Shown piece by piece: positions 47,180 to 49,441 of a stretch of DNA of 64,000 nucleotides. Made by a program: the position numbers and the translations under genes. The notes below the pieces were generated by a model, which was given only the letters and a program-made list of their open reading frames with translations, did not search any database and was not told the origin of the DNA. Source of the DNA: an uncultured Acidimicrobiaceae bacterium (GTDB lineage: Bacteria; Actinomycetota; Acidimicrobiia; Acidimicrobiales; UBA10347); assembly GCA_905182135.1 (NCBI GenBank), contig CAJJAG010000002.1, forward strand, positions 186,001-250,000, read 5' to 3'. Position 1 is the first letter of the stretch. Every line of letters begins with the position of its first letter.

Positions 47180-47395
47180 TCTCTTTACAGCGATCCTCTA
47201 AGGACTGAGTGCGCTCTGCAGGCAAGCCAGGTCAAGCGCCCCTGCGGTGACAACGCCGGAGAACGGGCAATGAAGCTACCCGTTCTCATGCTGATGCCAC
47301 TGGTGACCTGCATCCTCCCACCGCTCTTGATTGTGCTGCTCGGCCCTGCTGTTCTGCAGGTCATGGAGACCGGACTCGGCTCAGGCAACCTCTAA
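47180..47395 (+). pseudogene. C-terminal remnant of a type II secretion F / TadC-like protein
   Basis: The frame is open from 47180 to a TAA at 47393-47395. It contains GERAMKLPVLMLMPLVTCIL followed by PPLLIVLLGPAV, the hallmark end of GspF/TadC-like membrane proteins. A full protein is about 300 aa; only about 70 residues remain, preceded by a stop and no plausible start except an internal ATG at 47270. No other secretion genes are nearby. It is probably debris of a lost gene cluster next to a tRNA. Confidence 0.6.
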
Positions 47396-47498
47396 GCCTG
47401 TTCTTGCCTGTGTAAATGGGCACAGGTGTGGCTCCAAAACTGGTTCACCACCACTACAGTGCTGAATCTCGTAGCTTGCGCAAGTTGGCAACGTAGTA

Positions 47499-47570
47499 GC
47501 CCTCGTAGCTCAGGGGATAGAGCATTGGCTTCCGGAGCCATGTGCGCAGGTTCGAATCCTGCCGAGGGCG
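47499..47570 (+). tRNA. tRNA-Arg (anticodon CCG)
   Basis: The 72-nt cloverleaf has acceptor GCCCTCG/CGAGGGC, D-arm TAGCTCAGGGGATAGAGC, anticodon loop TTCCGGA (CCG), and T-arm GCAGG-TTCGAAT-CCTGC. Position 27-43 of the anticodon stem is a T-T mismatch. The 3' CCA is not encoded. It reads CGG arginine codons. Confidence 0.96.
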
Positions 47571-48188
47571 CTGCAGAGTTCAGATCACTTCCCAGCCGGG
47601 TTCTTTACCCGATCTGATGACAGCGATGACACCCGGTTCTACGAGCCTGTTCGCCTGGTCCAACACATTGACGACGGCGCAATTGCTGCCGTAACTTCGT
47701 TGTACGAAGAACTCAATATCAACGGCCGTGTCCTGGACATCATGGGTTCATGGATCTCGCACTTCGCAGCAGCTCCAGACGAACTGGTGGTGTTGGGCAT
47801 GAACCTGACCGAGCTACAGGCCAACCCCATGGCCACCGCGGTGCTGGCTCACGATCTGAACATCACGCCAACACTTCCGTTTGCGGACAACCACTTCGAT
47901 GACGTCGTCTGTGCCGTGTCGGTGGACTACTTAACCCAGCCAATCGAGGTGTTTGCCGACGTACAACGGATTCTGAAACCTGGCGGCCGATTGGTCTGTA
48001 CTTTCAGCAACCGCTGTTTCCCAACCAAGGCGATCCGCGGTTGGCTGTTAGCTACTGAAGCCCAGCGATGCAACATCGTGGCCCAGTACTTCGAGCTCTC
48101 AGATGGGTTCGCGCCAGCAACGACTGAGAACCGCACCGGCACTGCATCAGGTGACCCGCTCTACACCGTCTGGTCCACCGCCACCTGA
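47571..48188 (+). CDS. SAM-dependent methyltransferase domain protein, start codon unclear
   Basis: The visible domain has the methyltransferase motif I region GRVLDIMGSWISHF, motif II-like LPFADNHFDDVVCAVSVDYL, and RILKPGGRLVCTFSNRC. A TTG at 47700 would give 162 aa but removes a conserved-looking N-terminal stretch (FTRSDDSDDTRFYEPVRL; HIDDGAIAAV). That stretch is in frame and open back to base 47571, immediately after the tRNA-Arg discriminator base, with no ATG, GTG or TTG. The first codon after the tRNA is CTG. Either a non-standard start is used, or the 5' end was lost by recombination at the tRNA. The substrate is unknown. Confidence 0.7.
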   Translation: MQSSDHFPAGFFTRSDDSDDTRFYEPVRLVQHIDDGAIAAVTSLYEELNINGRVLDIMGSWISHFAAAPDELVVLGMNLTELQANPMATAVLAHDLNITPTLPFADNHFDDVVCAVSVDYLTQPIEVFADVQRILKPGGRLVCTFSNRCFPTKAIRGWLLATEAQRCNIVAQYFELSDGFAPATTENRTGTASGDPLYTVWSTAT

Positions 48189-48262
48189 TCGTGAACACAA
48201 CTCTATGCAGATGCCTCCGCAGAGAGTTGTCGTCTGCCTGGTGGTCAGCTGGTTCGGCCCTT

Positions 48263-48268
48263 TAAGCT
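48263..48268 (+). promoter_or_regulatory. Candidate -10 of the FrhB-like gene (leaderless)
   Basis: TAAGCT is followed by 6 nt and the ATG at 48275. Confidence 0.45.
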
Positions 48269-48274
48269 CAACAC

Positions 48275-49441
48275 ATGAGCACAGCTGAGGCCACCAAGCC
48301 AGCACGCGTCCGCTGGACGCACCAGTGGAAGGAACTCCACGACGAAGTCATTAACAGCGGGCTCTGCACCGGTTGCGCTGGCTGTGTCATTGCCTGCCCC
48401 CACGATGTCATTGGTTACAAGCACGAACCTGGGCACTACAAGCCGTTCCACCTTGAAGACGAACTTGGCGAAGCTAACTGCACCCACGGCGAAAAGGGCT
48501 GCACCAGCTGCACCCGGGCGTGCCCTCGCTTCCGCGACTGGGAGACCGAGGCCGACGAGCACTTGTTCGGCCGAGTCCGTGAACCCGACGAAATGTCGGG
48601 CGTGTTCAAAGACATCCTGCTGGTTCGCGCCAGCGACGACTTCGTTTACGACACGGGCCAAGACGGCGGTTTAGTTTCCGCCATCCTGATCTGGTGCCTT
48701 GAGAACGACATCCTCGATGGCGCTCTTGTCAGCCATCTCGAAGGCGGTGCCGATGGCGGCGGCTGGAAGGCCATACCCGGCGTCGCTACGAACCGCGAAG
48801 AGGTCCTGGCCGGCGCAGGAAGCCGCTACACCTATTCGGCCAACACCATGGCCTATCCCGAGGCCAAAGAGAAGGGCCTCGAGCGCCTTGCACTCGTGGG
48901 CATGAGCTGTCAGACCTCAATTGCGCCTGTCATGTGGCACCGCAAGGTCGGCAAGGTTTCTAAGCCGTTCAAGCTGAACATAGGCCTGCTGTGTTCCAAG
49001 TCGTTCGATGACTCACTGTTCGATGAATTGTTCGGCGTCAAGTACGGCCTGAACAAAGACGACATCGTCAAGATGAATATCAAGGGTGTCTTCCAGGTGT
49101 GGATGAAGGACGGCTCGTACCACGAGATCAACCTGAAGGAATGCCACGCCTGGACGCGTGAGGGCTGCATACATTGCCCAGACTTCGCGGCCGAGCACGC
49201 AGACATCAGCACGGGTGGGATTGGTAACGAAACGGACTGGACACTAACCGTCGTTAGAACCGACCTGGGTCGGGCCATTATCGAAGCCATGATCAAAGAT
49301 GGCGTCATCGATACCCGCCCAGGTGACGATGACCCTGCAGCGATTGACCTGATGCGCCGACTTTCACAGAAAAGCCGCGAACGTTGGCCACAATGGGCCA
49401 ATCAAAGCGCAGCGGTCGGCCTTCCCACCCGCAAGAAGTAA
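48275..49441 (+). CDS. FrhB-family iron-sulfur flavoprotein (coenzyme F420 hydrogenase/dehydrogenase beta-like)
   Basis: This 388-aa protein has two ferredoxin-type clusters at its N-terminus: Cys31, 34, 37, 41 and Cys69, 76, 79, 83. The FrhB N- and C-terminal domains follow, with GQDGGLVSAILIWCLE, LVGMSCQTSIAP, FKLNIGLLCSKSF and the cysteines of CIHCPDF. The family includes F420-reducing hydrogenase beta, F420-dependent sulfite reductase parts and 7-hydroxymethyl chlorophyll reductase. No hydrogenase genes are near, so it probably acts with ferredoxin or F420; the reaction is unknown. Confidence 0.88.
   Translation: MSTAEATKPARVRWTHQWKELHDEVINSGLCTGCAGCVIACPHDVIGYKHEPGHYKPFHLEDELGEANCTHGEKGCTSCTRACPRFRDWETEADEHLFGRVREPDEMSGVFKDILLVRASDDFVYDTGQDGGLVSAILIWCLENDILDGALVSHLEGGADGGGWKAIPGVATNREEVLAGAGSRYTYSANTMAYPEAKEKGLERLALVGMSCQTSIAPVMWHRKVGKVSKPFKLNIGLLCSKSFDDSLFDELFGVKYGLNKDDIVKMNIKGVFQVWMKDGSYHEINLKECHAWTREGCIHCPDFAAEHADISTGGIGNETDWTLTVVRTDLGRAIIEAMIKDGVIDTRPGDDDPAAIDLMRRLSQKSRERWPQWANQSAAVGLPTRKK

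Follow-up and report, generated by a model that had tools for sequence, protein, structure and literature searches.

A methyltransferase gene that lies immediately 3' of tRNA-Arg(CCG) in this genome is probably a derived allele without a start codon, its leader and GTG having been deleted beside the tRNA, and is best viewed as an incipient pseudogene. Most likely the gene became start-less recently and is now either weakly expressed or silent. The window is the whole 64,000-nucleotide stretch of DNA that was analysed (offset 186000), and its genome is referred to here as G000. The tRNA, located with the Rfam tRNA model, is at G000:C2:233499-233570. The features that matter, in window coordinates, are:

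47195 to 47392, + strand: C-terminal piece left over from a T2SSF (TadC-like) gene, which relative G003 has in full; a second deletion scar by the tRNA
47455 to 47460, + strand: TACAGT, a possible -10 element of the tRNA promoter, found by inspection
47472 to 47474, + strand: TAG that closes the methyltransferase frame 5' of the tRNA
47499 to 47570, + strand: tRNA-Arg(CCG) by the Rfam tRNA model, with no encoded CCA and with discriminator G at 47570
47571 to 47576, + strand: CTGCAG junction where the closest relative has a 35-nt leader and GTG, a net loss of 32 nt
47571 to 48188, + strand: start-less SAM-dependent methyltransferase coding sequence, 205 codons plus stop, frame intact and conserved residues kept
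47577 to 47672, + strand: N-terminal stretch with a GFF..R.D...D..FY...R...H.D block, conserved in orthologues and 5' of any canonical start
47700 to 47702, + strand: TTG, the first canonical in-frame start codon, which is internal codon 44 and not the native start
48275 to 49441, + strand: FrhB/FdhB-like coenzyme F420 dehydrogenase subunit, found in 6/6 genus genomes

The arrangement at the junction is simple. The codon CTG at 47571-47573 is the first past the discriminator and is in frame with the methyltransferase that ends at 48188 (ARAGORN also calls tRNA-Arg with anticodon CCG, at 47499-47571, placing the last base at 47571 rather than 47570). There is no ATG, GTG or TTG in this frame upstream of TTG 47700, checked back to the TAG at 47472-47474. 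An earlier sequence-only reading had reported the CTG and the lack of a canonical start before TTG 47700, and the sequence and its frames bear this out. It had also stated that the frame opens at the tRNA 3' end. The missing start codon stands, but the frame actually extends back through the tRNA, with no stop until the upstream TAG. Because it is open through the entire tRNA, its stop-free reach to the tRNA end means little by itself. Chance does not explain, on the other hand, why the conserved N-terminal block sits upstream of the only canonical start, unlike in the scorable orthologues.

Other ways to begin the protein were considered and rejected. A start further 5' in the same frame is excluded by the TAG at 47472 and by the lack of ATG, GTG or TTG after it. 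Near-cognate starts (CTG at codon 29, ATT at codons 33 and 38) would cut off most of the conserved block. The tRNA itself contains an ATG, but in the window this is out of frame with the methyltransferase; in G002 it is in frame by chance and without significance.

The strongest evidence that the upstream stretch is real coding sequence comes from orthologues. A scan of GTDB species genomes yielded 80 of them at 53-76% identity, mostly actinobacterial and many from Acidimicrobiia, and an order- and genus-level search agrees with this picture. The conserved residues encoded before TTG 47700 are F7, G10, F11, F12, R14, D16, D20, F23, Y24, R28, V30, H32, I33, D34 and A37. All 78 scorable orthologues have an in-frame start upstream of the block (ATG in 38, GTG in 36 and TTG in 4). 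The impression that this stretch is conserved was therefore correct. The sequence-only reading had named orthologues beginning at the position of TTG 47700 as the finding that would count against it; none of the 78 does so. Thus the native start is not TTG 47700, and among these genes that of the window is the exception.

Might the gene nonetheless start there and encode a 162-aa protein? This is highly improbable. In its favour, no canonical start codon precedes the TTG in the frame. However, its use would discard F11, R14, D16, D20, F23, Y24, R28, H32, D34 and A37, which are near-universal among orthologues, and would strip a confident AlphaFold model of its N-terminal cap and most of helix 35-47, in addition to contradicting every scorable orthologue. 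One practical consequence is that automatic annotation is likely to call, wrongly, a protein truncated at TTG 47700.

The protein itself appears to be a conventional enzyme of its class. It scores 36 bits against Methyltransf_11 (PF08241), above the curated cut-off of 21.2, with the match covering the C-terminal half of the domain, while no NCBIfam model reaches its cut-off. AlphaFold models the 205-residue product with a mean pLDDT of 94. A fold search of the PDB returns class I methyltransferases, the best matches including small-molecule and lipid N-methyltransferases, and neither the predicted structure nor the fold search indicates a specific substrate.

How the start was lost is best seen by comparison within the genus, for which six genomes were used (G000 and G001 to G005). 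The tRNA-Arg(CCG) gene was found in five of the six. In its anticodon loop, position 32 is T in the window but C in G001, G003 and G005. The closest relative is G002, which has the same order of tRNA, methyltransferase and frhB and shares 76% (methyltransferase) and 95% (FrhB) protein identity with the window. In G002, after a matching tRNA 3' half come the 35 nt CTACTTCTACGTCGATTCACGAACAGAGCACAAAC and then GTG AGT TCA GAG CAC TTC. The corresponding window sequence after the tRNA is CTGCAG AGT TCA GAT CAC TTC, so that six bases replace the leader and the start codon. A usable start is therefore absent where orthologues have one. G005 has the tRNA, 246 nt and then a methyltransferase with a GTG start, and G004 has a methyltransferase with a GTG start but the tRNA is not adjacent. 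GTG starts also occur in G004 and G005, so the shared condition is to have a leader and a start, and the window departs from it as a derived form. Comparing the junction in relatives was the check proposed by the sequence-only reading, and it singles out the window as the outlier. Of the two explanations then on offer, recombination at the tRNA that removed the true start is now well supported, by the homologous leader and GTG of G002 and by the GTG starts of the more distant G004 and G005. The other, a leaderless mRNA that begins with CTG, is disfavoured (see below).

In the simplest sequence of events, one deletion, or a few in succession, would have taken out the leader and the GTG in the interval from the tRNA 3' end to the second codon. 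With its end point at the tRNA 3' end, such a deletion makes the frame continuous with the tRNA, and the frame would have stayed joined to it by chance. The loss would be recent, and the protein would now be made poorly or not at all. Replacement of a lost start by CTG is rare: in reconstructed histories, 1/5,080 ancestral GUG starts became CUG (PMC5622118).

The methyltransferase also seems to be a gene that this genus can do without. In G001 and G003 the tRNA is followed directly by frhB (after 72 and 118 nt, respectively) with no methyltransferase between, and there is no orthologue-grade match elsewhere in G001 (71% complete) or G003 (94% complete). This means that the gene is dispensable in the genus. 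It is present or absent at one tRNA-frhB position among species of a single genus, with frhB in all six genomes lying 3' of the methyltransferase or, where that is absent, of the tRNA.

A second scar lies on the other side of the tRNA. The remnant at 47195-47392, flanked by the malic-enzyme gene and the tRNA, corresponds to a TadC-like gene that in G003 is complete (409 aa, PF00482) and located just 5' of the same tRNA (L145:8757-9983). The only other T2SSF family members that the window genome encodes lie on a different contig and are more distantly related (34% and 25% identity). In G001 the malic-enzyme gene and the tRNA are almost adjacent. Together, the absence of the methyltransferase from 2/6 genus genomes and the truncated tadC-like remnant by the tRNA point to a deletion-prone locus. 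Sequence around tRNA-Arg(CCG) has been lost repeatedly.

If the start is gone, has the coding sequence begun to decay? Visible decay does not extend beyond the start, and this counts against the pseudogene reading. The frame runs intact to its own stop with no internal stop or frameshift. At all 69 columns whose conservation across 81 sequences is 93% or higher, the window keeps the conserved residue. Between the window and G002, pN (0.146) is far below pS (0.701), giving an omega of about 0.08 that is rough since dS is saturated. Nevertheless, parsimony counts of unique amino-acid changes, made at positions where G004 and G005 agree, give 16 for the window methyltransferase and 5 for that of G002, which is weakly significant (p 0.027). 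For FrhB the corresponding counts are 4 and 9, and the contrast with the methyltransferase has a Fisher p of 0.014. The excess is, weakly, what some relaxation of constraint would produce. Overall, the pattern of substitutions fits either a recent loss accompanied by slight relaxation where the sequence is variable or a gene still in working order, and does not firmly separate the two.

This leads to the main rival of start loss. What if the methyltransferase is still translated from CTG 47571? Two routes can be imagined: a leaderless message with a 5'-CUG created by RNase Z cleavage, or an unprocessed transcript on which GAGG serves as the Shine-Dalgarno sequence. Several observations are compatible with this idea. 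Translation from this codon, which directly follows the discriminator, would add one residue relative to the G002 protein, and every conserved methyltransferase residue is kept. The genome encodes an RNase Z-like protein (310 aa), although it scores below the family cut-off. A scan detected neither a terminator nor a sigma-70 promoter between the tRNA and the methyltransferase, so the tRNA promoter probably drives the methyltransferase as well. The position of that promoter is suggested by TA(C/G)AGT hexamers 5' of the tRNA in G000, G001, G003 and G005, candidate -10 boxes picked out by inspection; the sigma-70 scan upstream of the tRNA found no full promoter. Leaderless translation is also probably used in the genus. 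In 6/6 genus genomes, frhB has a TAAGCT or TAGGCT box 6-7 nt before its ATG (48230-48277 in the window), the spacing expected of leaderless promoters, which makes leaderless expression plausible.

Nevertheless, translation from the CTG appears unlikely. In tests in Mycobacterium smegmatis, only ATG or GTG served for leaderless initiation and CTG was ineffective at that position; among selected leadered starts in mycobacteria CTG accounts for 0.03% (PMC4633059). The codon here is CTG and so does not conform. The alternative route fares no better, since GAGG (47564-47567) is only 3 nt from the CTG and is paired inside the tRNA acceptor stem, which makes a Shine-Dalgarno role unlikely. In addition, the CTG does not require selection. 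The base after the discriminator is C in 25/25 tRNA genes examined (27 were found, two at contig ends being left out), and the relatives G001 and G002 share GCTA after tRNA-Arg(CCG). The CTG is therefore readily explained as a leftover rather than a selected start, and its presence is not significant. As to the C itself, it follows the tRNAs even though CCA is not encoded, and the bases after it vary; it is possibly a remnant of CCA or a preference of RNase Z. The proposal that tRNA processing makes a CTG-leaderless mRNA thus found no positive evidence, is weakened by the mycobacterial data and faces this simpler alternative. The stronger form of the idea, in which bacterial tRNA punctuation by RNase Z after tRNA-Arg(CCG) yields a CUG-leaderless mRNA and ties the methyltransferase to tRNA maturation, is very unlikely.

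A different kind of doubt is whether the junction is real. An assembly or consensus error, with the true genome retaining leader and start, is conceivable for a draft that is 60% complete, but it is quite unlikely. The contig is 350 kb long and neighbouring long genes (for example, those encoding 1308, 1201, 568, 494 and 388 aa) align full length and in single frames to relatives, so the consensus is not riddled with indels. A clean, frame-keeping net loss of 32 nt is also atypical of consensus error. A search for the exact junction in viral contigs gave no match and is uninformative on this point. Start loss by deletion beside the tRNA is still the favoured reading.

Several known systems are worth setting beside this locus. 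One is the incipient pseudogene that arises by deletion of the start codon and leader. In common with this kind, the downstream frame is intact, the initiation site is lost and the gene is absent at the locus in sister species; what differs is where the deletion ends, at the 3' end of the tRNA. Should the gene be silent, it provides a clean example of gene loss that starts at the start site, at a locus where it is already missing from sister species. In tRNA punctuation as known from mitochondria, a coding sequence likewise abuts the tRNA 3' end, as it does here on the same strand (discriminator at 47570, first codon at 47571), and tRNA 3' processing would give a nearly leaderless mRNA. However, the present case is single, derived and bacterial and has CTG as its first codon, and the arrangement is not conserved, relatives having 35 nt (G002) to 246 nt (G005) between tRNA and gene. 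The literature on tRNA punctuation and dicistronic tRNA-mRNA transcripts, judged mostly from titles, offers no evident bacterial precedent. The leaderless mRNAs of actinobacteria (PMC4633059) come from the same phylum, and the adjoining frhB has its -10-like box 6-7 nt before ATG. The differences are that CTG takes the place of ATG or GTG and that the 5' end would come from processing. If the methyltransferase is expressed after all, a bacterium would have an mRNA punctuated by tRNA in the manner of mitochondria, and the rule that actinobacterial leaderless messages start with ATG or GTG would have an exception. Finally, the protein resembles the class I SAM-dependent Methyltransf_11 superfamily (PF08241) in its score above the Pfam cut-off and its confident Rossmann-like model, but it belongs to a subfamily of its own, with a conserved N-terminal GFFxRxDxxxDxxFYxxxRLVxHID block and with VLDLMSSWxSH in place of the glycine-rich SAM motif I.
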